A stretch of 24,225 nucleotides of DNA from a virus. The stretch lies in IMG/VR virus record IMGVR_UViG_3300031227_000418, positions 1 to 24,225 of that record. One strand, written 5' to 3'. The number at the start of each line of letters is the position of its first letter. Positions within the stretch are counted from its first letter, which is position 1. Of the stretch, positions 6,310 to 24,225 are shown one piece after another. The notes below the pieces were generated by a model. It was not told the origin of the DNA, searched no databases, and worked only from the letters and a program-made list of their open reading frames with translations. The position numbers and the translations under genes are program-made.

Positions 6310-7212
6310 ATGAAGCCTACCCTAACCACATTCAGCGACATAGCAGGATCCATCGACAACTATCACTCTAACCCAAACGCCTATAAGGGCAAATCAACCG
6401 GCTCGCCAAAACTGGATGAGTTCATTACGCTCAAAGAGGGAAACCTGCACGTTATTACCGGCATCCCGTCATCCGGAAAATCGGAACTACTCGACCAGAT
6501 CATGCTTAACACCGTCGCCCTGCACGATTGGCATTGGGCGGTATTTAGCCCCGAGAACTGGCCTCTTGAAGCACATTTCCAGAAGGTGTGTGAGAAGTGG
6601 ACTGGTAAGCCTTGGGCTTCACAAGGGTGTACACGGGGCGTTACTAATGACGACGTGATAGATACGCGGGCATTCTTGTCACAACACATATCATTCATAG
6701 ATACGCCTGATGGCATGATGACTCTCGACACGTTTCTTGAGGGGTGTAGAATAAGCCACGAGGAGCACGGCACTAATGCGGCCGACTTAGACCCGTGGAA
6801 TGAACTTGAGGCGAAAGCTCCAAAAGGCATGAGCGAAACAAATTACATTTCAGAATGCCTCAGCAAGATTCGCAATTTTGGGCGCAAGCATGATATGGCA
6901 ATGTTCATTGTGGCTCATCCCACAAAGTTGCAGAAGAATGAGAACGGCAACTATCCGGTGCCAACTCCGTATGACATTAACGGAAGTGCCGCTTGGAGAA
7001 ATAAGGCTGACGTATGCCTGTCTGTATGGCGCAATTACCAAATGAATGATGGCGTAGTGCAGGCGCATGTTCAGAAGGTGCGCAACAAGATGCTTGGCAG
7101 GTTAGGTATGACTGAACTTCACTGGCTGTGGACGAATGGCATATTTATGGAAGATGAACATGAAGTTTGCGAGGGCGAGCGATTTGCCATCAAGAAGCTG
7201 GTAGAACAATGA
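6310..7212 (+). CDS. DnaB/Twinkle-type replicative helicase domain protein
   Basis: A 300-residue RecA-fold ATPase. Walker A is GIPSSGKS (residues 51-58); VFSPENWP (78-85) corresponds to the catalytic-Glu strand; LDPWNELE (160-167) is the Walker B region of Twinkle/gp4-like helicases; FIVAHPTKL (199-207) is the sensor; and KVRNKMLGRLG (256-266) carries the Arg-finger-like segment. No TOPRIM or zinc primase domain is attached, so a primase must come from elsewhere. Oddly, the Walker B strand reads TNAAD before LDPWN, where a hydrophobic run is usual. Start 6310 has GGAGATG upstream; an in-frame ATG at 6160 lies inside the previous gene and is rejected. Confidence 0.88.
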   Translation: MKPTLTTFSDIAGSIDNYHSNPNAYKGKSTGSPKLDEFITLKEGNLHVITGIPSSGKSELLDQIMLNTVALHDWHWAVFSPENWPLEAHFQKVCEKWTGKPWASQGCTRGVTNDDVIDTRAFLSQHISFIDTPDGMMTLDTFLEGCRISHEEHGTNAADLDPWNELEAKAPKGMSETNYISECLSKIRNFGRKHDMAMFIVAHPTKLQKNENGNYPVPTPYDINGSAAWRNKADVCLSVWRNYQMNDGVVQAHVQKVRNKMLGRLGMTELHWLWTNGIFMEDEHEVCEGERFAIKKLVEQ

Positions 7213-10309: not shown

Positions 10310-10914
10310 CACCGGCAATCATAGTGCCGCAAGAGGTTGAGGTAGAGAAACTTAACGTCATGGATGGCGGTGCATCTAACGCGCAGGACAAAGCTACCCG
10401 CGTAATGCTTGCCGAGGTTGACGAAAGCGCAGTGGAAGGCGCACCCTCTCTCGTTGACATGTGGGATAGAGTTGTCGGTTTTCACGACACAAACGAGCTT
10501 GTACGTGTAAATATCCAGCAGGTACAGCATCTTTTTCAAGAGGCATACGAGGAACACCACCGGCAGAAGATACTTGATAACGAGAGATTGAAGTGTCTAC
10601 TTGAGAATGCCAAGGCTGATTCAAGTCAGGCAGACACCTATACTGCGGAACTCTATCGGGTCAATCAGGAGCGCAAGTCTGAGCGCAAGCAGCTTCAACA
10701 GATGGCTATCACGGTTACCGGACTTGCGAAGGAATACCGTAGTTGCTCCATGCAGCGGGCTATGTTTATCCATATTGCCTTGATTCAGCAGTTTACCTTG
10801 CTGATATCAGCCTCAATTCAAAGGAATGTCAAAGATCCGTATGCTTTAAGGGCGATTGGTGAAGACATAAAACAGGCAAAGCGGGTGTGTTTCCCGGCAC
10901 AGGATAACAGTTAA
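10261..10914 (+). CDS. Hypothetical protein in the small-terminase position
   Basis: A 217-residue protein just upstream of the large terminase, overlapping it by one base (TAATG). It has an acidic N-terminus (MAQEERSEEKEGIKEVAP), a middle coiled-coil-like section (about 90-160) and a hydrophobic helix (MFIHIALIQQFTLLISASI). By position it could be the small terminase, but no clear DNA-binding HTH is visible, so the call is only positional. CAGGAGAGAGG precedes the ATG. The 49-nt overlap with the preceding gene is the longest in the window. Confidence 0.6.
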   Translation: MAQEERSEEKEGIKEVAPAIIVPQEVEVEKLNVMDGGASNAQDKATRVMLAEVDESAVEGAPSLVDMWDRVVGFHDTNELVRVNIQQVQHLFQEAYEEHHRQKILDNERLKCLLENAKADSSQADTYTAELYRVNQERKSERKQLQQMAITVTGLAKEYRSCSMQRAMFIHIALIQQFTLLISASIQRNVKDPYALRAIGEDIKQAKRVCFPAQDNS

Positions 10915-12809
10915 TGAAGAAATTAGGCGATCAAAGCGTAAGACCAGTAGCGAGTATCGATCAGGTTATTGACGATATGGCGCTCAGTCTTGAGGAACAG
11001 CCCCCGAGATTAAAGGCTTTCTGGGATTATAAGCCGATTCCGCTCTATATGGGAGAACCGTCGTTTAGTACAGTCGCAGAAGAAGGATTCTTTAGGACAA
11101 AGAAGAAGATTAGGGCATTATGCGCCGGAAATCGTAGTTGCAAAACTTATACCGCTCTGTACGAATTGATAATGATTTACACTGGTATCATCCCTCCGGC
11201 GCTACAAGGGATATATCCGTGGGAACAGTCGCTCAAGGACTGTTTGCCGGGGGGTAAGCACCCTCACGCCCGCCGTTGCCGTATAGTCGTACAGAATTAC
11301 ACTACCCATTGGGCGACGGCTCTCAGGCCCATTCTCTTGCAACAGGAGCAGGATCAAGATACAGGGCTTTTACCCGAAGGATGGGACGATTGGAATGGTG
11401 ATGAGCATCTATTCACGGGGCCGGATGGCTCTCTATTGCATATCTATTCAGCGGATCCGCGCGAAAACGTGAACCCTATCTTTCTCAGGGGTGGCGCTTT
11501 TGACGCTACGGTGATAGATGAGCCTAATTCTCAGACGGTTTTCGAGGAAAGTGTGGCAAGAACTATATCAGTTCCGCACGGATTAGGGTTTGTGACGCTA
11601 TCCTACTGCCCTGAAGATGGCTTTGAATCGTGGCATTACAAGGATATTTACAAGAAATGCTACGATTTTAACACCTATGAGCCGTTGCCGCCCGAAAAGG
11701 TGGATCCTGAAATCTTTGTTCAGGTAGCAACTCCAATGGACAATCCATCGACAACCGAGGACGGGTTACGGGCTATGAAGGCCGCATGCCGACCTTGGCA
11801 GATACTCTCTAAAGTTCACGGCAGATACTCAGCGCAAGGTGAAAACAGCTTCTTTCCTGTAGGAATCCTCTCTGATTGGCAGGTAAAGCCTGATTTGAAC
11901 GGATTTTACGAGTATGCAGAGTTTGATATGGCAAATGTTTGCGAGCAGGACGGTGAATTTGAGGCAGAGGTAAACTGGCTGGACAGGAATGAGGGCGACG
12001 GAATAGCTGAAAGAGAAGATCGACCTATCTGGAAAGTGTGGCATAAGCCTGAAGATGGGCATAAATACGTGATGACAGCCGATTGCGCGGCTGGTCGCAA
12101 GGATTCCGACTATCAGGTATCAGATATATGGGACGCCACAGACTACACCAATGTCTTTCAGGTAGCGCAATTACGCATAAAAAAGCTTACAATACTGGAC
12201 TTTTCGGCACAATGCGCGGTGATGGGCACCTATTATGGCGATATCCTGATAGCACCGGAAGCCGAAACCTTTGGCGCAGCATTCATTGATAATATCAGGG
12301 AATACCCCAATATCTACGAGCGCACCAACATATCTTCACGGATAGACAACCAAGACGAGCGCAAATACGGCTGGTCATCAAACAAACATAGTAAACTTAA
12401 TATGCTTGAGAATCTTGATCAGTTCTTGAAGAAGTGTCAGGAGCAGAAGTATATCCCCTTACGATCCCTGCATACGCTTAACGAGTTGGTGGCTTATCAG
12501 GAAAAACTTAAGACTAGCCATGACGGAGTGACGAAACGGACATGGGGTGCCAAGTCCGGAATGAACGATGACACGGTTACAACGGCTGGTATCGCTATCT
12601 GGATTATCCGGAAAGAGTACGAAAAGTTGTCGGTATCACACCTTCATCCTGAACGACCAAAGAAAATACATGTTGACTTACATGCGCAACGTATGAAAAG
12701 ATCAGAACAGACCAACAGGGGATTCGGCAGGGCGCTCACGCACCGGAAGCGGAACCTAACAGAATTGCGACGTAGCCACACGAACCCAAGGAGGCGCGGC
12801 AATGGCTGA
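10914..12809 (+). CDS. terL: Terminase large subunit
   Basis: A 631-residue packaging motor: N-terminal ATPase plus C-terminal RNase H-fold nuclease. The Walker A region is AGNRSCKT (residues 71-78), with Cys76 where Gly is expected. Walker B is TVIDEP, with Asp202-Glu203. The nuclease begins at MTADCAAGRKDSDYQ (Asp390), continues through IAPEAETFG, and ends with NDDTVTT (Asp552/Asp553), matching the acidic cluster of terminase nucleases. Length and order are normal for the family. Head genes follow immediately. Apart from the Cys, all expected motifs are present. Confidence 0.93.
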   Translation: MKKLGDQSVRPVASIDQVIDDMALSLEEQPPRLKAFWDYKPIPLYMGEPSFSTVAEEGFFRTKKKIRALCAGNRSCKTYTALYELIMIYTGIIPPALQGIYPWEQSLKDCLPGGKHPHARRCRIVVQNYTTHWATALRPILLQQEQDQDTGLLPEGWDDWNGDEHLFTGPDGSLLHIYSADPRENVNPIFLRGGAFDATVIDEPNSQTVFEESVARTISVPHGLGFVTLSYCPEDGFESWHYKDIYKKCYDFNTYEPLPPEKVDPEIFVQVATPMDNPSTTEDGLRAMKAACRPWQILSKVHGRYSAQGENSFFPVGILSDWQVKPDLNGFYEYAEFDMANVCEQDGEFEAEVNWLDRNEGDGIAEREDRPIWKVWHKPEDGHKYVMTADCAAGRKDSDYQVSDIWDATDYTNVFQVAQLRIKKLTILDFSAQCAVMGTYYGDILIAPEAETFGAAFIDNIREYPNIYERTNISSRIDNQDERKYGWSSNKHSKLNMLENLDQFLKKCQEQKYIPLRSLHTLNELVAYQEKLKTSHDGVTKRTWGAKSGMNDDTVTTAGIAIWIIRKEYEKLSVSHLHPERPKKIHVDLHAQRMKRSEQTNRGFGRALTHRKRNLTELRRSHTNPRRRGNG

Positions 12810-14673
12810 ATATGACGGACTGAATGAGGCGCAGAAAAAGAGCCTCAAGAATTACCGCGACTCACTAACTCAATCAATAGAGTTTGTCAGACCTTACTTT
12901 GAAAAGTTCATTCGCTTCATGCGATTGTATGCGGGAGAACGACCAGCAGAGATTGACAGCACCTATTCGCAAATCATGCTTTGGTATCCATTCTCGATCA
13001 TCGATCAAGAACTACCAGTAACCCTGCGTAGTATGTTTTCTAATCCCGACTGGATTAACCTTGAAGCAATGGAGTATCAGTACGAGCGTCATTCAAAAGT
13101 TGCTACACGTTGGCTCAAGTATCAGCTTGAAAAAGTACAGCGCATTCAGCAGACCATTGTTCCTACCGCTCAGTCTACGCACATCTTCGGTACTGGTTAC
13201 AGATTCTATTCGCACAAGTATATCCCTAAACCCAAAACGCAGACGCGAGAGATAAGCGGTATGATGGGTATGGTTGAGGGCTTGGAGCAATCGACTACTA
13301 CCGAACAACAAGGTCTTATCTCCGGCGGCTACATGAATATCTTTAATGTGTATCCCGCACCATTCGGAGGCATGGTAAACTCTCCTGATGGCACCGACGA
13401 AAACAAAGCGCCGTATGTAATCGTGATGACGTTCCCTACCGAAAAAGAAATCCAAGCAGAAGTTGAGAAGGGTAACTTCGATAAAGATCAGGCCGCTAAG
13501 TTATTCGCTTCGCCACTTGAAACTAAAGACCCAAGCGCAGAGTACAAAGATCAGCTTTCAAAGATAGATGGTGGCTGGCAAAGTTTCACTAAGCCAGAAT
13601 GGATCCGTAAGGCTGCGGCGCGTGGATTGAATGTTGATAAGCGCAGGCGTGTGGCATGGATGATGTCAGGTGATAATTGGAAGGCTGTAGGGGAAGATAA
13701 GTACATGCTTTACGATGATAAGCCGCTTCTTGCCGCAACACCGCTTGCCAAGTTTACAGGAACCTATGACCTTGATAACTGGTTTGGGCTTGGCCTGATT
13801 GAGCCATGTGAGGATTTGGTAATCAGTATGATTATGAATTTCAATCATCGCATGGATTATCTCGCAGGCATTTTCCATCCACCAACATATTTGCCGCAAC
13901 GATTGATTGACGATTGCGGCGGCGACCTTGGCGCTTTTGATCCCGAACCTTACAAGACTCTAGCTTACAACCATAAGCAATTTCCGAACGGGATAGGCAG
14001 TTACATTTACCATGATCGTAACGATGAAATAGATCAGCAAGCTTTTGTAGAAGAAAACCAAATGCAGAGTTACCTGCAACAGATTATCGGTCAGCATCCG
14101 GCGTCTTCTCTTGACGGAAATAATGCGACAACTACGGCGGCACTTATGTCAAAGGATGTTGCGCGGGGGATGTTGCGAGCTATCAATATTGAGAATAGCG
14201 GTATACATGATTCAGCTTGGCTCACGCTCAAACTTGGGGCAAAACATATTGAGGATGACCAGTGGATCCGTGTTTCCAATGCAGACGGGTTCCCTTGGCA
14301 ACAAGTAGACAAAGACGCTATCACTGACGGTTACGGCGTACAGGTGACGGGCGCGAAGGATTTACAGATTGCAGAAATTACTTTCCGTCGCATGTTGTCG
14401 GTGGCTCCTATGCTATTGCAGAGTCCACGGGTGCGCGGTCAAGTCGAAGCGTTGCGCCAGCTAGCCTCTAAGGGTGGATTTGAGAATGTTGATTCCATCA
14501 TGCTAGGCGAGCAAAGTCCCGCGCCGCCGCAGTCGCAAGGTCAGCCCGGCGGGGCACCTTCTCCCATTGCGGCTGCGGGTGGTGCTCCCACTGTTCAGAA
14601 CGAAATGGCAGGAGCGGCAAACGGTCAGGCTGTTGTTGGGCCCGGCGGTGAAGGGGGTAACATACTCGTATGA
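12802..14673 (+). CDS. Portal protein
   Basis: A 623-residue protein of the length and composition of podovirus-like portals. It is helical at the N-terminus (ALKNYRDSL-like stretch, FVRPYFEKFIRFMRLYAGERP), with a central beta-rich domain (GGYMNIFNVYPAPFGG, APYVIVMTFPTEKE) and a long C-terminal helical part. It ends in a low-complexity Gly/Ala/Pro/Gln tail. It forms the dodecameric ring at the head vertex through which TerL packages DNA. The order terL-portal-scaffold-capsid supports the call. AAGGAGG precedes the ATG, which overlaps the terL stop. Confidence 0.87.
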   Translation: MAEYDGLNEAQKKSLKNYRDSLTQSIEFVRPYFEKFIRFMRLYAGERPAEIDSTYSQIMLWYPFSIIDQELPVTLRSMFSNPDWINLEAMEYQYERHSKVATRWLKYQLEKVQRIQQTIVPTAQSTHIFGTGYRFYSHKYIPKPKTQTREISGMMGMVEGLEQSTTTEQQGLISGGYMNIFNVYPAPFGGMVNSPDGTDENKAPYVIVMTFPTEKEIQAEVEKGNFDKDQAAKLFASPLETKDPSAEYKDQLSKIDGGWQSFTKPEWIRKAAARGLNVDKRRRVAWMMSGDNWKAVGEDKYMLYDDKPLLAATPLAKFTGTYDLDNWFGLGLIEPCEDLVISMIMNFNHRMDYLAGIFHPPTYLPQRLIDDCGGDLGAFDPEPYKTLAYNHKQFPNGIGSYIYHDRNDEIDQQAFVEENQMQSYLQQIIGQHPASSLDGNNATTTAALMSKDVARGMLRAINIENSGIHDSAWLTLKLGAKHIEDDQWIRVSNADGFPWQQVDKDAITDGYGVQVTGAKDLQIAEITFRRMLSVAPMLLQSPRVRGQVEALRQLASKGGFENVDSIMLGEQSPAPPQSQGQPGGAPSPIAAAGGAPTVQNEMAGAANGQAVVGPGGEGGNILV

Positions 14674-15080
14674 AGCAAATTATTGATCGCACAAGGTCGA
14701 AGCGTCCGATAAATGTTCCCGACGAAGACGATGTGAAGAATCTGGAATATGCCAGAGAGAGAGCGGTTGCTGAATTAGATCAACTTGACCTTGCCATTCA
14801 GAGGTTAGAAAGCAACGAGTATCAGGCGCTTGTGGAGGAATCTAAGCAGGATATGATAGAGATAGCCTTGGCAGCGATGGAGCTTGATCCGGATGATATA
14901 AAGCGATTCAGCAGGGCGCAGGGACAATTTTTTGAAAGGAAACGCTTGACGCAGAAATTAGCAGATGTGAGAATAGAGGCTGAAAGCAAGAAAAGTTTTA
15001 TTGGCAACCTTACAAATCAGGTACGAAATCTGGTTAAGAAGTTGCAAAAAGTAAAGGAAGGTAAGAAGGATGAACGGTAA
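14670..15080 (+). CDS. Coiled-coil head-region protein
   Basis: A 136-residue, highly charged, nearly all-helical protein (LEYARERAVAELDQLDLAIQ, then repeated Glu/Lys helices, ending LVKKLQKVKEGKKDER). It sits between portal and scaffold and overlaps both by ATGA-type junctions or a few bases. A small assembly or scaffolding accessory role is inferred from position and coiled-coil character. Confidence 0.7.
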   Translation: MKQIIDRTRSKRPINVPDEDDVKNLEYARERAVAELDQLDLAIQRLESNEYQALVEESKQDMIEIALAAMELDPDDIKRFSRAQGQFFERKRLTQKLADVRIEAESKKSFIGNLTNQVRNLVKKLQKVKEGKKDER

Positions 15081-16194
15081 CGAAGCTCAACCAACAGTAG
15101 CAACGGCACCAGTAGCGGCACCAACGGCAGAAGATGAGGCACTTGCGGTAATAGCAGATGTCGGTAAATCTGCTTCAAATGTAGTTGCTCCGCCTGTTGC
15201 GCCTGTAGAGCCTGTTACGGCACCTGCGAACCCTCCGGCGGGAGAGGTAACACCAACGACACCAGAAGGCAGTACGCCAGCGGAGGGTGGGGCGACAACC
15301 CCGACAGACCCAAACACCGCTGCGACATCCGACGGAGCGCCGCCTGAAGCGGTTGCACCCGTAGTGGACGAGGCTGCAGCTTTTGACGAAGCATTGGGAT
15401 TACCGCCTGAGACGGCAGAGACGGTAGATGTGTGGAGAGAAAAGGCGCAAGCCGCTTCACAGGAAACCTCTCGTGTCAGCGAGGAACGGACAGCACGGGA
15501 TGAAGCTCTTAGCGAGATGGGGCTTAAGTTGGTTCACGTCGGGGAAGGCAAGTATGCTCTCAACCCGACGGACGAGTATAAGGGTAGTTTCGATATCGAT
15601 GGTGATATTGATCTCTCTAAGCTTATCGAACCAATGACCGAAGCACAAAGGGATGCTATGCTTACCGATCCAGAGGCTACCTTCTCCAAGTTGGCGAAGG
15701 GTGTAGCCAAGAAAGTCGGTCTGGAACTGCTTACAAAGCGTCCACCAGTCAAGGCGGGAGTGCAAAAATCACTTCTAACGGAACATGAAACGAGCGATTG
15801 TTTTGATTCTTTCGTCACGTCAAAGCGCCCTGATGGTACGACACCCCTGTATCCAGACGCCGATAAGCCTGAGATTCAAAGCTATATGACCCGTATATGG
15901 AATGCCGGTTCCCCCGCTATGGATGCAGTTAGAGATGCTGCAAATAGGGATAAAGGCGTATACATGGCGGCAATGGAGCTTTGCTATTACAAGGCAGCAT
16001 TCGGAGTGGCTAACGCCAAAGAACGCGTAAGATTAGCGGGCGAGCAGGCCAACGCTACTCACGTAGAGAATCAAAATCAACCAGTAGTATCAGCAGGAAG
16101 CGCAGGTGCGCCACCGGCGGCAACGCCATCGGCAACCACCAGAACGGCAGAAGATGAAGCTCTATCGATTATAGGGGCAGCCAAGCCAGCGTAA
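15070..16194 (+). CDS. Probable scaffolding protein
   Basis: A 374-residue protein directly before the major capsid gene. The first 110 residues are Ala/Pro/Thr/Val low complexity; the middle is acidic and helical (DVWREKAQAASQETSRV...), with LVHVGEGKYALNPTDEYKG in a beta-like section; the C-terminus is again Ala/Pro rich. TAEDEAL occurs near both ends, at residues 19-25 and 359-365, followed by hydrophobic residues. Disorder, acidity and position fit a scaffold or capsid-assembly protein. A head protease is less likely, as no catalytic triad is visible. Confidence 0.65.
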   Translation: MNGNEAQPTVATAPVAAPTAEDEALAVIADVGKSASNVVAPPVAPVEPVTAPANPPAGEVTPTTPEGSTPAEGGATTPTDPNTAATSDGAPPEAVAPVVDEAAAFDEALGLPPETAETVDVWREKAQAASQETSRVSEERTARDEALSEMGLKLVHVGEGKYALNPTDEYKGSFDIDGDIDLSKLIEPMTEAQRDAMLTDPEATFSKLAKGVAKKVGLELLTKRPPVKAGVQKSLLTEHETSDCFDSFVTSKRPDGTTPLYPDADKPEIQSYMTRIWNAGSPAMDAVRDAANRDKGVYMAAMELCYYKAAFGVANAKERVRLAGEQANATHVENQNQPVVSAGSAGAPPAATPSATTRTAEDEALSIIGAAKPA

Positions 16195-16229: not shown

Positions 16230-17435
16230 ATGCCAGTACAAAATGGAGCAGTTATAGATGGAGCAGCACGTTCAGATAATGTGAACTCCGCAGGTCTTAT
16301 CATTGATATGGAAAAAATCATCCACGAGCTTGAGCCGGATGAATACAAGATGGTCGCGCTTATGAAGCAGTTTGGCGAGGATCGCGCTTGTGCTCAGATG
16401 AAGCATCAGTGGCAGGAAGATCGCCCGATTCCTAATTACTCGACAATCTCGCAGACTTCGGCAGCGGCAGCTACGACGATCTACGTCAATGATTATACTC
16501 GGGTTCAGGATGACAATGTTCTCTTTGTCATCGACAAGGATTCAGGAGATATCAAAGAGCGCCTGCTTGTTCAGGATTCCAGTATTGATGAGAGCATTAC
16601 CGTTGTAGCAATAACGGACGGCTCAAGTGGCTGTACTAACGCCCTTGCAGTTGGCGATATCGTTGTTATTGGCCCTGAGTCACATGCAGAAGGCGAAGAT
16701 GTACCTACCGCATTCACCAACAAGACTACCGACCTGTATACATACAACATGCAGATTGACCGAGCCGTAAAGATCACGGATCAGGAAGAGGCTATCGCTC
16801 ATTACGATGACCGTCAGAAGAGTCTTGCATGGTCGCGTAAAAAGGCGTGGATTGAGACTATGCGTGATGTCAATATGCTGTTTTATCTCGCAACGAAAGA
16901 ACGCGAGACGACTACGGCTGGTGGCAGACGCAGGTATATGTGTGACGGCGTGCTTGCTCTCTTTACCGAGAACAACATTGATCTGTCAGAGACAGAGGGT
17001 GGCTTCACAGCGGCAACGCTAGGCGGAATCTTGGCGGCAACTAAGAAGTATGCCGGATCAGGCGAGAAGAAGATTCTGCTTGGTGGCGCAAATGCATGGG
17101 AAGCAATCTCAGCATGGCCTGAAAACGCCCTTCGCGTCAGCCCCAGAGAAAAAGAATGGGGTATCAGGCTTAACCGTATCATCACTGGTTTTGGTGATAT
17201 CGATGTAGGTCACGACAACACGCTTGATGCGAATGTCGGGCTTGCTGACAGGGCTGTAATCCTCGATCCGGTATTGATGCGCAGACTCTATCTGCAGAAT
17301 CTTGGCTGGTTCAAGATGCACCAGAATATTCAGAGTGCTCGTGATATCCATAACAAGGAAGACGCTATAAGCGGAACTTGCGGAATCATGGCTCCCCTTG
17401 CAGAGCTTTATGCTCAAATAAGCGGGATTCACTAA
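16230..17435 (+). CDS. Major capsid protein, SU10-like HK97 fold
   Basis: A 401-residue capsid protein. Its N-terminal arm (LIIDMEKIIHELEPDEYKMVALMKQFG) and core sequence resemble the SU10-type major capsid family (formerly DUF5309): a loop with SSAAAATTIYVND style residues, a K-ITDQEEAIAHYDDRQ stretch, a basic AWSRKKAWIETM helix and a GFGDIDVGHDNTL segment. SU10 itself has a podovirus morphology with an elongated head. AAGGGAGGCACGAA before the ATG is the strongest ribosome site of the head operon, as expected for an abundant protein. Confidence 0.85.
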   Translation: MPVQNGAVIDGAARSDNVNSAGLIIDMEKIIHELEPDEYKMVALMKQFGEDRACAQMKHQWQEDRPIPNYSTISQTSAAAATTIYVNDYTRVQDDNVLFVIDKDSGDIKERLLVQDSSIDESITVVAITDGSSGCTNALAVGDIVVIGPESHAEGEDVPTAFTNKTTDLYTYNMQIDRAVKITDQEEAIAHYDDRQKSLAWSRKKAWIETMRDVNMLFYLATKERETTTAGGRRRYMCDGVLALFTENNIDLSETEGGFTAATLGGILAATKKYAGSGEKKILLGGANAWEAISAWPENALRVSPREKEWGIRLNRIITGFGDIDVGHDNTLDANVGLADRAVILDPVLMRRLYLQNLGWFKMHQNIQSARDIHNKEDAISGTCGIMAPLAELYAQISGIH

Positions 17436-17466: not shown

Positions 17467-17940
17467 ATGCAGAAGCATGATACGAAATGGAAGGATGAAC
17501 CGGAAGCGAAGATCAAGAGGGTATTTCGCACTACAAAGGTACCGTTTGAGCTAGATAAGCGCATACTCGGAACCGTCAACCGTCAAGAAGGTACGGAAAA
17601 CGGAACTACAGTAAGACCATTGCTTATCAAAAAGAAGTTCAATCACGCCGGTCAGTACGTCCTGCAGGATAACGAGCAAGAATACAACCGTCAGCTTGGA
17701 GCCCTTCGTAGGGCAGAGGGCAACAGTAAGATTCTTGAAGTCGATCCTACGTGGGAAGGTAAACCGTTCATTCCAGCGCCTCCACCTGACGAGCGCGACA
17801 AACAGATAAGGGAACTTAAAGAAGAATTAGCGGCTGCAAAAGCCGGTAAGTCCAAGACTGCCCCGAAACCAGTAGCGAAAACTGCAGGTGACGACGGCGA
17901 GAAGGGCGACCCGGCAGCACCCGTAGAAGGAGCGAAGTAA
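17467..17940 (+). CDS. Hypothetical head-region protein with disordered tail
   Basis: A 157-residue basic protein. A structured N-terminal half (FELDKRILGTV... HAGQYVLQDNEQEYNRQLG) is followed by Pro-rich and Lys/Ala-rich segments and a coiled-coil-like helix (ERDKQIRELKEELAAAK). AGGAGG lies upstream. Position after the capsid gene suggests a minor virion or decoration/adaptor component, inference only. Confidence 0.65.
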   Translation: MQKHDTKWKDEPEAKIKRVFRTTKVPFELDKRILGTVNRQEGTENGTTVRPLLIKKKFNHAGQYVLQDNEQEYNRQLGALRRAEGNSKILEVDPTWEGKPFIPAPPPDERDKQIRELKEELAAAKAGKSKTAPKPVAKTAGDDGEKGDPAAPVEGAK

Positions 17941-17942
17941 TT

Positions 17943-18662
17943 ATGATGAAGAAACTTAGAGTGATAGTTGGGCTGTTGTTACTGGCAGCAATTGGCGTTG
18001 TTCACGCCGAACAGGAAGGTGTTACCTTCTTCAATGAGGCAGACGAAGCGAAGGCCATAACGATTAAGTATCGTGGTGCCGCTACTGCTACGATCACGAA
18101 TGCGGCTACAACCATCGAATTAGTTGACGATGATTATACCAATTCGATTGCAATCGGAACGACGATGAGCGCCGTCCTGACTAGCATCAATGCGGCAACG
18201 AATACTGCTGGCATTCGTAACTTCACGTCCGATTATCTTTGCTCCCTGTCTACGGACAGCCTGAGTAATAAATTAGTGGCAGCTACGGCGCAGGTAGATA
18301 TATCCGATGGCAAAGAGGTTCAGTTCCTCACAATGGATACGTCCGCAACGGTTACATTTGATGTAGCTCGCAAAGATGGCCCTGCCTGTTGGGTTACTGG
18401 AATCACTGGTAATCCGGGTGGTACTGGTAATGCAACCACCACTATATATGTCGATGGCGACATGAAATGGACTGATATTAGCATTAGCCCATGCTACGAT
18501 AACGTAGACGGAACAATATTCTCGACCAATGCGAACGTGAATCTGTCTGGTACGTTCAATGAGTCTATCTATGTCGGCAAGGATAGGACTGTCCTAGTTC
18601 GCTCAACGCGAGCCACTACTGCCACAACCGGCGGTATCGGCGTGATATTCACACAGCGGTAA
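17943..18662 (+). CDS. Secreted-type virion-region protein with Sec signal peptide
   Basis: A 239-residue protein. Residues 1-22 (MMKKLRVIVGLLLLAAIGVVHA) are a classic Sec signal peptide: basic n-region, Leu-rich core, and VHA before EQ as cleavage site. The mature part is Thr/Ala/Asn/Asp-rich, with repeated beta-strand-like patterns and two Cys-containing segments. AAGGAG precedes the double ATG. It lies inside the late operon between capsid and tail genes, an unusual place for an exported protein. It could be a capsid decoration, a tail component or a surface factor. Confidence 0.7.
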   Translation: MMKKLRVIVGLLLLAAIGVVHAEQEGVTFFNEADEAKAITIKYRGAATATITNAATTIELVDDDYTNSIAIGTTMSAVLTSINAATNTAGIRNFTSDYLCSLSTDSLSNKLVAATAQVDISDGKEVQFLTMDTSATVTFDVARKDGPACWVTGITGNPGGTGNATTTIYVDGDMKWTDISISPCYDNVDGTIFSTNANVNLSGTFNESIYVGKDRTVLVRSTRATTATTGGIGVIFTQR

Positions 18663-18674
18663 TTATTTTGTCGG

Positions 18675-18701
18675 CAGGGTCGGCTTAACACTGGCCCTGC
18701 T
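18675..18701 (+). other. Hairpin in the spacer before a signal-peptide gene
   Basis: GCAGGGTC (18675-18682) pairs with GGCCCTGC (18694-18701), 8 bp including one U-G, loop 11 nt. No T-run follows on either strand. It may slow ribosomes or RNase or be a weak partial terminator; no strong claim. Confidence 0.4.
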
Positions 18702-18720
18702 TACAAGCAAGGAGAACGAT

Positions 18721-19098
18721 ATGAAGAAAATCTTAACATCACTCCTGATGGTTATCATTGTCTGTTCTGTGGCTGTAGCGGGTTTGCAACGGTCTGGGGG
18801 AAAAACGAAGTGGGTATCCCATCCAACGGCGGCAACATGCTTCCTGCGTGATAGGACCGATGATGTGTATCCAAGCAGGGACACCATCGTGTATCCTGAC
18901 ACCACTAAGTTGCTCGATGTTAATACAGTTGGTACAGGCACAGTTTACAACACCGGCTATTTTAATATTGATACTAGTGGAGATGTGTATCCGATAGATA
19001 ATTTGAAGAATCGCTATGCTCAGTTAGGGGATAGGGGAGCGCTTCTTGACATAGAGTTTTTGCTGGATTCTTCCGGCGATGTATATCCAAGAGATTAA
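18721..19098 (+). CDS. Signal-peptide protein with repeated [GD]DVYP motifs
   Basis: A 125-residue protein. Residues 1-20 are a signal peptide (MKKILTSLLMVIIVCSVAVA). The mature part contains a Tyr-Pro motif four times: DDVYPSRD (48-55), TIVYPDTT (55-62), SGDVYPID (86-93) and SGDVYPRD at the C-terminus (118-125). A single Cys lies in the mature part. CAAGGAGAACG precedes the ATG. Function unknown; a small exported or virion-attached repeat protein is inferred. Confidence 0.65.
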   Translation: MKKILTSLLMVIIVCSVAVAGLQRSGGKTKWVSHPTAATCFLRDRTDDVYPSRDTIVYPDTTKLLDVNTVGTGTVYNTGYFNIDTSGDVYPIDNLKNRYAQLGDRGALLDIEFLLDSSGDVYPRD

Positions 19099-19117
19099 AA
19101 AGAAAAGAGGTATTGGT

Positions 19118-19732
19118 ATGAAAAAAATGAAAATAACGGTGCTAGTGCTGGCGATGGTTGTTTGTGGTTACTCGGTTATGGCAGAGGGGCTTTACACCCC
19201 AAACACGGATGGAGACGATCTAGGCAGGACGGATAAGCGGTTTGGCGTAGTGCATGCTGACTCATTCAGCAATCTCACTGCCGAGGTTTATGCAACAAAT
19301 GTAGTCACTTATGCCGCAGATATCGAGACGGGCACAATCGAAAGTGCAGCACTTACAGACAAAGCCGCAATTTTATCGACGGTAACGATGTCTGTTGTTA
19401 CAAACACTGGTGATACCAGCGGAACTAATGTCGTGACGTATACTGCTCTTGATATAGCCGGTAACGCCGTTACTGCTCCGTTCGTGTTTCGCACATGGAT
19501 AACCGACGACGAAGAAGGCGCTCTTGCCGCTGTGACCGGTTCTTTTACGGTTGATAATGGCATGGAGCTTGAGGAGGTTCTTGATAAGGCTGACTACTGG
19601 ATATCTACCACGAATGACAATGTTACCGCTACCGTGACTATCGTGGATCTTTCCGGTGGAACAAACTACATCCATTGTCTGAGTCCTACAGGATTTAGAA
19701 CTACTGTTCCTTCTGCCTTTGATACTCCGTAA
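19118..19732 (+). CDS. Secreted-type virion-region protein with Sec signal peptide
   Basis: A 204-residue protein. MKKMKITVLVLAMVVCGYSVMA forms the signal peptide, with cleavage expected before EG. The mature part is beta-rich, with Thr/Asp/Asn/Val; a short YTPNTDGDDLGRTDKRFG segment resembles tail-fibre 'LGxxxKRFG' patterns used in fibre N-termini. Start 19118 chosen for AAAAGAGG; an upstream in-frame ATG at 19079 lies inside the previous gene without a ribosome site. Probably a fibre- or decoration-related protein. Confidence 0.65.
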   Translation: MKKMKITVLVLAMVVCGYSVMAEGLYTPNTDGDDLGRTDKRFGVVHADSFSNLTAEVYATNVVTYAADIETGTIESAALTDKAAILSTVTMSVVTNTGDTSGTNVVTYTALDIAGNAVTAPFVFRTWITDDEEGALAAVTGSFTVDNGMELEEVLDKADYWISTTNDNVTATVTIVDLSGGTNYIHCLSPTGFRTTVPSAFDTP

Positions 19733-19749
19733 CAGAATGGTGGTTAATT

Positions 19750-20667
19750 ATGATTGCCGCCGGTATAGTTATCAGCGCCGTTCAGAATATGATCGACGAC
19801 GATTCCGATGAAACGAAAGTTGTCATCCGTGATTATCTGAACCTTGTCTATCAGGGCATAGCATCTCAGCGTAATTGGGCTGATTTGCGCAAGTATATAA
19901 GCGCAATGCCGTCTGACAGGATTCTTCCGTCAGATTGCGGGCAACTTTACTATGTTGAGGACGATACGGATTACCTATATTTCAAGGGTGGCGTCCCTTT
20001 GAGATACTCAAGGAGTAGGCTATACAACTACTTCCGTGATATTGGAGTAGCGACACCGCTACTTACCGGCTCTGATCTGAGCACAACGATCAACGATAAG
20101 ACTGTAGGAAGCGTAACAGCGGGCTTCACGGCGGCTATGGTTGGCGAATACCTCCGTATCGGTAATCAGTTCGGGTTCTACAAGATAGCAAGCTTCACGA
20201 GCACGTCAGAGATTGAATTGACTGACGCTGTTAGGGCGGCAGACTTGAGCGATCCTGGAACCCCTGCTAATCTGACGGCGCAATACTTCGAGGTACGCCC
20301 TACAGGAACCAAGAAGCTCCTGTTTACAGATGAGGATGGGGGCACTATCTCGTCAACTACAATCAAGATATGGTATACGGCGGTACCGCTTCCTGTCTAT
20401 AATGACTACGATATGATACTTCTGCCCGGTAACTGCGAGGCGGTAAGGGTCAAGATATGTCAAATGATGGATCAGACGGACAAATACACCAATGACGCGC
20501 TTAAGAAGGTGCCTGATTACGATGAGGAACTCGAGAAGATGGTGGCACTTGACCCATCTCCGAGCATAGAGCGCACACCAAGAGGACGGTATGGTAGTAG
20601 ACTTGCTTTTGGCAGGCATCGTGCCGGCCCAAATAGTTACGCGAGTGACGGAAGGCTCCGGCTGTAA
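19750..20667 (+). CDS. Head-tail adaptor-like (connector) protein
   Basis: A 305-residue protein. The N-terminal helices (IVISAVQNMIDDDSDETKVVIRDYLNLVYQGIASQRNW) have the look of phage adaptor/gp6-like connector proteins. A beta-rich middle follows (IGNQFGFYKIASFTSTSEI, FEVRPTGTKK) and then a helical C-terminus (CEAVRVKICQMMDQ...) and basic tail. No signal peptide. AATGGTGG upstream is a modest ribosome site. Position between head and tail genes supports the role. Confidence 0.6.
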   Translation: MIAAGIVISAVQNMIDDDSDETKVVIRDYLNLVYQGIASQRNWADLRKYISAMPSDRILPSDCGQLYYVEDDTDYLYFKGGVPLRYSRSRLYNYFRDIGVATPLLTGSDLSTTINDKTVGSVTAGFTAAMVGEYLRIGNQFGFYKIASFTSTSEIELTDAVRAADLSDPGTPANLTAQYFEVRPTGTKKLLFTDEDGGTISSTTIKIWYTAVPLPVYNDYDMILLPGNCEAVRVKICQMMDQTDKYTNDALKKVPDYDEELEKMVALDPSPSIERTPRGRYGSRLAFGRHRAGPNSYASDGRLRL

Positions 20668-20679
20668 GGATGAATATCT

Positions 20680-22215
20680 ATGGGAGATTACGCAAGACCT
20701 AAGAATCCACAGAGTATTCCGAGCACCAAAGTAAGGGTGTTTGATGGTATCGGTGGCCCTGTTACCCAAATCCTTAAGCGCTTCAATTCCCGTGGTTGGG
20801 ATATATCCAGTACCGTAGCCAATGAGGTTTCCGACTTACACCTTGCAGAAAAAGGATCGCTATTATTGCGTCCGGGTATGCGTCGGCTTGGCTCAGAGGA
20901 TCACACAATAGGATGGTTGGGTCAGATAAACATTGGTGGGCTACTCAAATACGGGGTTATCTATAATAACAGCCTGTCGGTAGTCGATCTACCTTCGCGT
21001 TTGGGTTATGATCTTATCCCTTGGCCCGAAGATGACCCTGTAAAACCTACTGATTGGCCTGCGGGATGGCACTTTTATCCTTGGGAGCCTGTAGATGATG
21101 TGATTCCCGAAGATCCCTCGCTACCCCTTGAAGAACAGGTTTGCACCGTTGGGTATACGTGGTCAAACGAACCTGCTGAAAAAGCGTTTGAGATGCAATA
21201 TGCTGGAACCTTGCCGAGTTCAGTTAACTGGTATCACAAGACGGAAGGGTATCGGCCCTATGTTCAGCTGATTGGTAACTACAACGCTCCTCCTGCATGG
21301 CTTTATGTCAACCTCCTTACAAGCAAAACCATAGTCCTTAATCCGTGTCTAGGCCAAATAACGGGTGGAATACTTTTTACTCCCAACGGTAAGGATATAG
21401 ATGATGAATGGCTTGTGCCTGCAACATATAATTTCACATCTACCCTTACATGGTCGGATGGCGAAGTAATGACATTCCCTATAACGCTTTATGTGTACGG
21501 CCCTGCAATAACACTTTCCCCTGAAGAATGGGACGAGCCTTCTGTAGTCGTCGGTGATTCTGGCAATAAGACGAAGACGATCAATATATCCAATACAGGT
21601 GATGCGGGTAGTAGCCTTGTCTGGGAGTACGTCTTGACTGGTGATGCAGTTCTAACGGCTATCCTGACTGCTGACAAGGCTTCTGGGACATTGGCTAAGA
21701 GTGCAGATGAAGACGTTGTTTTTACTATGACGGATCCCGGTGGCTTGGCGGCTGGCTCATATTCGGCTACTATCACGTTCAGAGACTCACGCTTGAATAC
21801 AGTTACCGGAACCGTTGACGTTACTCTGGTGGTAGTACCTGTCTTTACTGGCAATATACTTTGGTCCGGAACTTTTACAATAGATGGCGTCCTCCAATCT
21901 TCTCCTACTCTGGTTGGCGTGTATTGTGCTCCCTTTAACGACGGATTTAAGCCCGGATGGCATAGGGCTTCTGGATACCTCTGGGGATTGACTCCGCATA
22001 CAGGGTTTCATGTTGCTCACGATGGATGGGAAATGTTCTTTCAAGATGTAGCATGGTGGGAGTGGGGTGGTGGTACATCTCAAGCCTATCAGGATATAAC
22101 ATCATTCAATGCGAATGGATGTCCGACTGGCACTTACACATGGATAACGCCGTATAAGGCTATATCCCACGAGCAGGTCGATGTTTATACAATAACTATA
22201 AGCGAGATTCCATAA
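20680..22215 (+). CDS. Tail protein with BACON/Ig-like domain
   Basis: A 511-residue protein with three parts. Residues 1-105 are an N-terminal domain (DLHLAEKGSLLLRPGMRRLG then GGLLKYGVIYNN) resembling tail-attachment modules. A Pro/Trp-rich part follows. Residues about 276-386 are a BACON-like/immunoglobulin-like domain (ITLSPEEW, DSGNKTKTINISNTGDAGSS, PGGLAAGSYSATITF). The rest (387-511) is Trp/Gly rich and could be a carbohydrate-binding end. BACON-type domains are common in phage tail proteins and bind glycans. It shares its N-terminal module with the next gene. Confidence 0.68.
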   Translation: MGDYARPKNPQSIPSTKVRVFDGIGGPVTQILKRFNSRGWDISSTVANEVSDLHLAEKGSLLLRPGMRRLGSEDHTIGWLGQINIGGLLKYGVIYNNSLSVVDLPSRLGYDLIPWPEDDPVKPTDWPAGWHFYPWEPVDDVIPEDPSLPLEEQVCTVGYTWSNEPAEKAFEMQYAGTLPSSVNWYHKTEGYRPYVQLIGNYNAPPAWLYVNLLTSKTIVLNPCLGQITGGILFTPNGKDIDDEWLVPATYNFTSTLTWSDGEVMTFPITLYVYGPAITLSPEEWDEPSVVVGDSGNKTKTINISNTGDAGSSLVWEYVLTGDAVLTAILTADKASGTLAKSADEDVVFTMTDPGGLAAGSYSATITFRDSRLNTVTGTVDVTLVVVPVFTGNILWSGTFTIDGVLQSSPTLVGVYCAPFNDGFKPGWHRASGYLWGLTPHTGFHVAHDGWEMFFQDVAWWEWGGGTSQAYQDITSFNANGCPTGTYTWITPYKAISHEQVDVYTITISEIP

Positions 22216-22625
22216 TGCCATACAAGAGAGAAAACGATAAGACTAATAAGCGATACTCTCGCACGGTAGATCAGTTCTACGGTCTGCACATGGGGTATAG
22301 CTGGACGGATCAGCCCGCTTCATTCTCGTTTGGCTGCGATTTGCATTATGGATACAAAAAGCCAGAGCTTAGACCGGGTTGCCGAAAGAATCAGATAAAC
22401 GGGTATGATAACACTATTGCCAGCTTGCAGGCTATATCCATAGGTGGAATTGATTTGCTTGGAGTTATTCAAGGCGGTATCCTGTCTGTGTACCCTGTTA
22501 GCGATATTATGGAGGGAGTCAGGAGGTATTACACTTGGCAGGAGATTTACGACAGGGGCTATACTTGGGATGATCTCGAAAGCAAAACGTGGGACGACCT
22601 ATTTAACGGAGACAATAATCCATGA
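22215..22625 (+). CDS. Short tail protein, paralogue of the preceding N-terminal module
   Basis: A 136-residue protein. Residues about 42-92 (DLHYGYKKPELRPGCRKN ... ISIGGIDLLGVIQGGILSV) align with the attachment-like module of the preceding protein (DLH...LRPG.R...GG...GVI...LSV). The C-terminus has a repeated Trp-Asp motif (YTWQEIYDRGYTWDDL, KTWDDLF), a pattern seen in phage tail proteins. It starts within the TAA of the upstream gene (TAATG) and overlaps the fibre gene by ATGA. Confidence 0.65.
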   Translation: MPYKRENDKTNKRYSRTVDQFYGLHMGYSWTDQPASFSFGCDLHYGYKKPELRPGCRKNQINGYDNTIASLQAISIGGIDLLGVIQGGILSVYPVSDIMEGVRRYYTWQEIYDRGYTWDDLESKTWDDLFNGDNNP

Positions 22626-24225
22626 AGATAAAACAACTTGTAATTGCCGCAACGATTTTTCTGTCTGCCTTGTCATGTATGGCTCAGACAACGATTACTA
22701 GTCTGGGTGCTACCGACAGGGTGGATAGAGCAACACTTAATGCTAATTTCAATAATCTCAAGGCTTCGGTAGATGCATTTCATCCATCGAGCACAGTACC
22801 GTCCTCGCACGATTTTCAGGCGTGGTCGAACAATGTTATCGGTGTAAGCAATCTTGTCGGAATAGGCACAGGCGTCATAACGAACTTCAGGGAAATGTAC
22901 GTTGGAACTATTGTCGTATCGGAAATCTCATTAGGTACGGGGTCTGTGTCGGTAGCTGATGCGGCTAAATGGAACAGCAACTCCACTTGGTATGTCGATT
23001 CTTACGACAACCTCTTCTATCTTGATAGCAATAATGTGTCTACCGCAACCAATACCTATGATGAAATGACATACATGGATGGGCTGACGTTGAACGGAAC
23101 GAACGTAGGAACGGCAATAACGGTGCTCGAAGGTCAGACGAATAGTTATGCCTATCTCGCCATTACCAACACCTTTACAGCCTCTCAGTATTTCGATGAT
23201 ATCTATCTGTATGGCACTAATTTTTCAGCTATTGTAGGTTCAATAATTACCAACGGAACATCTGATTGGAGTCTTGGTAGCGGTACATTTACTGGAAGAG
23301 TGGACACAACAATAGATATGGTAAATGACGGGGCAAGTCAGAAGGAACTTATTACCAAAGAGTATCTTGACTTCTCTCTCCAGCAACTCGCAGGCGCAAC
23401 GACGAACAGCCCTGATGCTACATTGCTGGCTAGAGCGAATCATACAGGGACACAGCTTGCGGCAACGGTCAGCGACTTTGAGTCGGCTGTCAGCACCAAC
23501 GCTGATGTTGTGGCGAATAGTGCCAAGACTGGATACACCGAGGCGCTAGTCAATGCCAACGTATCAGTTGCCAGTAATACGCTCAAGGTGGGATATACTG
23601 ATGCGCTAGTAGAGGCCAATGGTAGCGTTGCCAGTAATACGCTCAAGGTGAGTTACTATGATGCCGGCAACGTGATCCTCAAAGATGGCTCAGTTGCATA
23701 TACAGGCGACCAGAACTTTGGTGGACATAACATTGATAGTGTAGGTACAGGTACTTTCCAAGAAGTAGAGTTCAACTATGGTGGTGGGATATATCAGGAT
23801 ATTTTTGGTCGTATTGTTATAGATAACACTAGGGGCACTGCACCAGTAACCAATACATTTGTTAGGTGTAATGCTTTACTAGGTGCAGGAGATATATTCA
23901 TCTCAGAAGAAGCATCATTAGGTATCCCCAGCTGGAGGTGGAAAGACTCGTACATAGTCACAGGTAATTTTGATACAGGGATTTTCAGTGTAGTCAAAGC
24001 AAATTATTTAACCAACTCTTCGCCTGTAGAAGTACATACTACAGCAACGGGCGGTTTGCAGATAGTCAACTATGCCACGATGGACGGCATGGGCTACGCG
24101 ATAGTTCTCAATTTGAATACGAGTAATTGGGATACTGCTTACTCTTGGGTCAATGATAATTCTAATAATTTTGCGTCTTTGGTATTACAGGTTGGATCTA
24201 ATGACACCGGCATAGCTTCTCTTGA
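22622..24225 (+). CDS. Tail fibre protein with Sec signal peptide, truncated by window end
   Basis: At least 534 residues; the gene runs off the right edge. Residues 1-21 (MKIKQLVIAATIFLSALSCMA) form a signal peptide. The mature start (SLGATDRVDRATLNANFNNL) resembles fibre attachment segments. LLARANHTGTQLAATVSDFE (about 271-290) is a familiar tail-fibre motif. A 20-residue repeat unit (ASNTLKVGYTDALVEANGSV) follows, then glycine-rich beta regions. Expected to form a trimeric fibre that recognises the host surface. The start overlaps the previous stop by ATGA. Confidence 0.82.
   Translation, partial: MKIKQLVIAATIFLSALSCMAQTTITSLGATDRVDRATLNANFNNLKASVDAFHPSSTVPSSHDFQAWSNNVIGVSNLVGIGTGVITNFREMYVGTIVVSEISLGTGSVSVADAAKWNSNSTWYVDSYDNLFYLDSNNVSTATNTYDEMTYMDGLTLNGTNVGTAITVLEGQTNSYAYLAITNTFTASQYFDDIYLYGTNFSAIVGSIITNGTSDWSLGSGTFTGRVDTTIDMVNDGASQKELITKEYLDFSLQQLAGATTNSPDATLLARANHTGTQLAATVSDFESAVSTNADVVANSAKTGYTEALVNANVSVASNTLKVGYTDALVEANGSVASNTLKVSYYDAGNVILKDGSVAYTGDQNFGGHNIDSVGTGTFQEVEFNYGGGIYQDIFGRIVIDNTRGTAPVTNTFVRCNALLGAGDIFISEEASLGIPSWRWKDSYIVTGNFDTGIFSVVKANYLTNSSPVEVHTTATGGLQIVNYATMDGMGYAIVLNLNTSNWDTAYSWVNDNSNNFASLVLQVGSNDTGIASL
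23515..23650 (+). repeat. 60-bp tandem repeat in the tail-fibre gene
   Basis: GTTGCCAGTAATACGCTCAA is exact at 23567 and 23627, in 24-bp identical blocks 60 bp apart; a diverged earlier copy begins near 23515. They encode ASNTLKV-type 20-residue units typical of coiled or triple-helical fibre shafts. Confidence 0.8.

Follow-up and report, generated by a model that had tools for sequence, protein, structure and literature searches.

Tailed phages are generally understood to build their particles in the cytoplasm, and signal peptides are not expected on their structural genes. Exported surface proteins of the lambda Lom/Bor type are encoded among late genes, and the coat proteins of filamentous phages (M13 pIII and pVIII) are structural proteins that carry Sec leaders, retain a transmembrane anchor and assemble at the membrane. 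Searches of the open-access literature turned up no account of structural proteins with signal peptides in tailed phages. Signal peptides have been listed among the features by which structural proteins, unlike enzymes, cannot be recognised (PMC3426561). Escherichia phage SU10 (Kuravirus) carries its late genes in the order terminase large subunit (terL), portal, small gene, scaffold, major capsid protein (MCP), slot gene(s) and adaptor. Its slot gene product gp10, an Ig-like protein encoded between the MCP (gp9) and the adaptor (gp11), resembles the epsilon15 minor capsid protein and the phi29 head fibre; gp10 was not seen in the SU10 virion, and is either lost from it or has another function (PMC9509320).

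Gene content of the window and likely host

The window analysed here is an entire IMG/VR record of 24,225 bases. Its left half encodes a replication-initiation protein and a DnaB-type helicase, and its right half is a head-tail operon running from terL through SP4, in which four genes for predicted exported proteins (SP1 to SP4) are interleaved with the adaptor-like gene 19750 and the tail-type genes 20680 and 22215 (numbers give start positions). The features are as follows, L037 and L108 being the related contigs G030:C135 and G428:C32.

6310..7212, + strand: DnaB-type helicase (PF03796); nearest relative in a prophage-like element of a Lentisphaerae MAG, 51%
10914..12809, + strand: terminase large subunit, terL (phrog_24361 terminase); 38% to L037
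12802..14673, + strand: portal protein; 44% to the L037 portal
14670..15080, + strand: small protein in the portal-scaffold interval; 29% to L037:14507
15070..16194, + strand: scaffold-like protein, by position and SU10 gene order
16230..17435, + strand: MCP of SU10 type (PF17236, E 1.4e-23); 47% identity to the L037 MCP
17467..17940, + strand: 157-aa gene 3' of the MCP, no signal peptide; positional counterparts L037:17279 and L108:4487
17943..18662, + strand: SP1, 239 aa, predicted exported; signal peptide 17943-18008 (VHA↓EQ); homologue with signal peptide L037:17690-18487, 32%
18721..19098, + strand: SP2, 125 aa, predicted exported, repeated DxSGD motif; signal peptide 18721-18780 (AVA↓GL); homologue with signal peptide L037:18542-18925, 33%
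19118..19732, + strand: SP3, 204 aa, predicted exported, probably short fibre-like; signal peptide 19118-19183 (VMA↓EG); non-homologous signal-peptide protein in the same slot, L037:18937-19317
19750..20667, + strand: adaptor/head-completion-like protein (role suggested by position), no signal peptide, best-conserved late protein; 51-55% identity to L037:19384
20680..22215, + strand: tail protein with Ig-like (choice-of-anchor D/BACON-like) region (NF012200, E 5e-4, below cut-off), no signal peptide; homologue in L037/L038, contig position 20296 onward
22215..22625, + strand: 136-aa tail protein, no signal peptide; N-terminal part in common with 20680, 43% over 53 aa
22622..24225, + strand: SP4, fibre-type, at least 534 aa, ending at the contig end; signal peptide 22622-22684 (CMA↓QT, or atypical lipobox ALS↓C)

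The MCP matches PF17236 with 84 bits against a cut-off of 24, which places it in the SU10 type. The portal scores 18.9 bits against PF23899 (SU10_portal), under the cut-off of 30, and its 44% relative in G030 scores 34.9, over the cut-off. No Pfam family, including the SU10-type adaptor family PF24175, matches 19750. The right half of the window is best explained as the late operon of an SU10-like short-tailed phage with an SU10-type head, the shapes of tail and head being predicted. The adjacent tail genes at 20680-22215 and 22215-22625 have a common N-terminal region, which suggests partial duplication. Furthermore, positions 1649-2494 on the minus strand encode a 281-aa protein with a long (D/N/A)SV repeat run (NSVQNSVRNSVHDSVHDSV...), probably a repeat-expanded early protein.

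The best genome matches of the helicase lie in Lentisphaerae MAGs, and the top match (L005) adjoins an integrase-like gene amid chromosomal genes of such a MAG. Together with the relatives in G030 and G428 described below, this points to a host in Lentisphaeria or in a neighbouring class within the phylum. Lentisphaeria-like bacteria are thus the likely hosts, and the G030 and G428 contigs may be mis-binned. As we take such hosts to be ordinary diderms, the unusual host envelope offered as an explanation by an earlier, sequence-only reading of this DNA is not needed. Searches of IMG/VR with the MCP, SP1, terL, helicase, portal, SP4 and two alignments confirmed no close relatives, and tblastn of INPHARED with the MCP, portal, SP1, 19750 and 20680 returned none. 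Related helicases also occur in the faecal records L003 and L004, which resemble pieces of Bacteroidales chromosomes and were rejected as kin.

Signal peptides in the late operon

Signal peptides were scored with a von Heijne-type cleavage matrix combined with n- and h-region rules, reconstructed here and calibrated on shuffled proteins and control phages; it is not SignalP, and this matrix is the chief technical weakness of the analysis, partly offset by the controls. Four of the 35 genes in the window (17943, 18721, 19118 and 22622) are positive and the other 31 negative, compared with 13 of 7200 shuffled proteins (0.18%). The sequence-only reading had ascribed Sec leaders to these same four genes, and all four N-termini are as it described; the adaptor- and tail-type genes at 19750, 20680 and 22215, which it had set apart as leaderless, score negative. 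The best cleavage sites are VHA↓EQ in SP1 (12.1), AVA↓GL in SP2 (6.6) and VMA↓EG in SP3 (7.2). In SP4, CMA↓QT (5.9) ties with ALS↓CM (6.0), so a lipoprotein type is possible, with ALS↓C being atypical compared with the canonical lipobox L-[AS]-[GA]-C.

All four leaders combine an n-region net charge of +2 to +3 with an h-region hydropathy of 2.9-3.4, and no transmembrane segment was detected in mature SP1-SP4 (maximum KD19 at most 1.4) or in the leader proteins of the relatives (at most 1.54). A good Shine-Dalgarno sequence precedes each of the four starts; that at 19118 is nested in a longer ORF (19079) and is favoured as the start by its Shine-Dalgarno sequence AGAGGT. With basic n-region, hydrophobic h-region and small-x-small c-region, the leaders are textbook fits to Sec/signal-peptidase-I substrates, and export of the proteins is predicted. 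Transmembrane anchors were rejected since the mature parts lack transmembrane segments, and wrong start codons in view of the Shine-Dalgarno sequences and the conservation in relatives. Prohead-targeting peptides were also considered as the identity of these N-termini and rejected.

Conservation in related contigs

A terL search of 198 genomes from the class of a Lentisphaerae MAG returned a single contig, G030:C135 (5e-124), with the same late operon as the window (terL 38%, portal 44%, MCP 47% and adaptor 55% identity). After its MCP follow a small gene, SP1', SP2', a third leader gene, a leaderless adaptor and a homologue of 20680, and the contig ends before the SP4 position. Signal peptides are present on SP1' (32%), SP2' (33%) and the unrelated protein in the SP3 slot, and absent from the adaptor. 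Only 4 of 22 leader residues in SP1 and 8 of 20 in SP2 are identical between the two phages, with the leader features kept; divergence of residues with retention of properties is the behaviour of selected signal peptides.

Two more distant relatives, G428:C26 (L107) and G428:C32 (L108), were found by searching 346 genomes from a different class of the phylum with an MCP alignment. G428:C32 has the same order, with a portal (21%), small gene, scaffold, MCP (23-28%), a 17467-like gene, a leaderless SP1-like gene and then, 3' of the MCP, a leader-bearing protein of 300+ aa in which a clear leader (MKMKKLIGIITIALLAMVWTCRA↓VDYNN) is followed by fibre-type repeats. In G428:C26, which encodes a beta-helix spike and an SU10-type adaptor that does match PF24175, no leaders were found. 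Leaders in G030:C135 and G428:C32 and none in G428:C26 indicate a feature common to some, not all, related phages. As a side observation, G428 thus holds two differing phages with SU10-type MCPs, one leaderless with a beta-helix spike, the other with a leader-bearing fibre.

Searching the 198 genomes of the Lentisphaeria class for the SU10 MCP gave ninety-odd matches in 77 of them. ORFs up to 8 kb downstream of the MCP at 55 other such loci served as a control set, in which 23 of 428 (5.4%) were positive, a good many of these being host genes or false positives caused by terminase P-loops. The window alone has 4 of 8 downstream ORFs positive (p = 7e-4), and the window, G030:C135 and G428:C32 together 8 of 17, a Fisher p of ~3e-6 that is indicative, since the three loci were chosen with the window already in view and G428:C32 entered the count through having been found. 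In the same scan no late gene of P22 was positive, and two of SU10 were, the holin and one fibre that by eye lacks a typical leader. The claim that so many leaders would hardly recur by chance is borne out by the shuffles and by the two related contigs, the kind of contigs in which the sequence-only reading had suggested looking for them. That these N-termini reflect chance or wrong start codons is very improbable: short hydrophobic N-termini at 5% of control-locus ORFs, many of them false positives, speak for it, and the Shine-Dalgarno sequences, the joint statistic over three loci and the conservation in the G030 and G428 relatives contradict it.

The genomes with SU10-type MCPs include G071, G129, G130, G150, G188 and ~70 more (L070-L089, L112-L151), mostly with a single copy of ~400 aa. 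Several of these loci carry a terminase-like P-loop ORF (LFGGSRSGK) ~1.1 kb downstream of the MCP, an unusual order. This MCP family in the Lentisphaeria class may represent either prophages that have spread widely or an element that has been domesticated.

Properties of the putative exported proteins

No domain or family was assigned to SP1-SP4 in Pfam, PHROGs or NCBIfam. The NHTGTQ repeat region of SP4 matches annotated tail-fibre and tail proteins, which supports its assignment as a fibre-type protein, and SP3 is probably fibre-like as judged by eye. AlphaFold models of SP1 and SP2, built from two-row alignments, are unusable (pLDDT 33-37), and the SP1 model suggests a mostly beta protein at very low confidence. 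SP1 shows weak similarity to the leaderless 246-aa protein L108:5037-5777 (pairwise E 2e-4; 38% over 72 aa), and its likeness to a slot counterpart that lacks a leader points to a structural rather than a cargo protein. One Cys is conserved in each of SP1 and SP2, weakly consistent with an oxidising compartment. The SP2 profile also matches two secreted host proteins of ~1450 aa (G057:C72:11225 and G055:C190:9773; L109, L110) with E values of 3e-5 and 3e-4; the weak match begins at the signal peptide and is probably mainly leader-driven, and they were rejected as SP2 kin.

SP1-SP3 occupy the MCP-to-adaptor slot of SU10 gp10. Of the earlier description of the exported proteins as fibre- or decoration-like, the fibre part is supported for SP4 by its repeats and also by the fibre-type, leader-bearing L108 protein, and the decoration part rests on the gp10 slot and the weak homology of SP1 to the leaderless L108 protein.

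Possible roles of the predicted exported proteins

We tentatively favour the reading, without giving it an even chance, that SP1-SP4 are fibre- or decoration-type proteins that leave the cytoplasm of a diderm host through Sec and join virions at lysis. The fibre SP4 and the three proteins of the capsid-adaptor interval, SP1-SP3, would be made late with a cleavable Sec leader, cross the inner membrane and be matured by signal peptidase I, while the capsid, portal, adaptor and nozzle-type proteins would remain cytoplasmic. Folding of mature SP1-SP4 would take place in the periplasm or at the cell surface; once lysis mixes the compartments, the proteins would most likely join virions as accessory fibres or head decoration. 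Export, compartment and assembly at lysis are thus steps we infer, as is virion membership, which is suggested by position and sequence type. Within the operon the leaders are confined to slot and fibre-type genes and are conserved across divergent relatives. Virion joining is favoured by conservation of the block, by the fibre-type sequences of SP4 and the leader-bearing L108 protein, and by the SP1-like L108 protein that lacks a leader. It is also supported by the tight head-tail operon, where a consensus scan found no promoter or terminator sites beyond chance and the SP4 gene overlaps the 22215 gene by 4 bases. Against it count the inefficient route, as exported subunits would meet virions only at lysis, and the lack of known domains and usable structure models for SP1 and SP2.

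A close competitor, itself a substantial possibility, is that SP1-SP4 are exported non-virion proteins, late surface or periplasmic cargo that coats the infected or lysogenic cell for superinfection block, receptor masking or adhesion, like lambda Lom. Signal peptides are the normal mark of surface and periplasmic proteins, SP3 is swapped for an unrelated signal-peptide protein in G030, as cargo genes are, and the absence of gp10, encoded in the equivalent slot, from the SU10 virion (PMC9509320) counts for this reading and against virion joining. Yet block order is kept between phages whose main head genes share just 38-47% identity, both SP4 and the leader-bearing L108 protein are of fibre type, and the promoter and terminator of its own that mark a Lom-type moron were not detected beyond chance in the consensus scan. 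It is improbable that the N-termini are uncleaved membrane-active segments with which virion proteins insert into the host membrane during infection, as ejection proteins do. Short-tailed phages do carry membrane-active ejection proteins, and a host protease trims 20 residues from the N-terminus of P22 gp7, but every one of SP1-SP4 has a short h-region and then a small-x-Ala site, as is typical of cleaved leaders, SP1-SP3 precede the adaptor rather than holding the position of ejection proteins, and the P22 late proteins were negative in the same scan. We consider it quite improbable that secretion serves folding only (disulfides, glycosylation) and yields receptor-binding fibres set free as adhesins or decoys, of which some would attach to virions by chance; the conserved Cys in SP1 and SP2 and the fibre-type sequence of SP4 agree with this, and the Cys-free protein in the SP3 slot of G030 does not.

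Extended from the window to its relatives, virion joining would mean that a clade of short-tailed Lentisphaeria phages finishes its particles outside the cytoplasm, with Sec-exported decoration and fibre proteins added in the periplasm or at lysis, which we regard as possible but doubtful. A conserved exported set of fibre/decoration-type proteins, if real, would imply that assembly spans two compartments or else that the phage clothes its host in its own fibres. Both possibilities are directly testable and matter for receptor masking, superinfection and host range.

Comparison with known systems

The window shares with SU10 the gene order from terL to the adaptor and the MCP family, and probably the portal family, in which its own portal scores under the cut-off and the G030 portal over it. 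In contrast to the single leaderless Ig-like gp10 of SU10, its slot holds three signal-peptide proteins, and the fibres of SU10 lack a credible leader. Compared with lambda Lom/Bor, several such genes stand in a row, are of fibre/decoration type and form a block kept between divergent phages. Sec leaders are common to SP1-SP4 and M13 pIII/pVIII, whereas mature SP1-SP4 have no transmembrane anchor. The P22 ejection protein gp7 likewise has an N-terminal leader cut off by a host protease, but it is cleaved by OpdA, its leader is not of the hydrophobic Sec type and its gene position differs. Measured against these systems, what appears to be new here is an SU10-type head-tail module with predicted exported accessory proteins of structural type.
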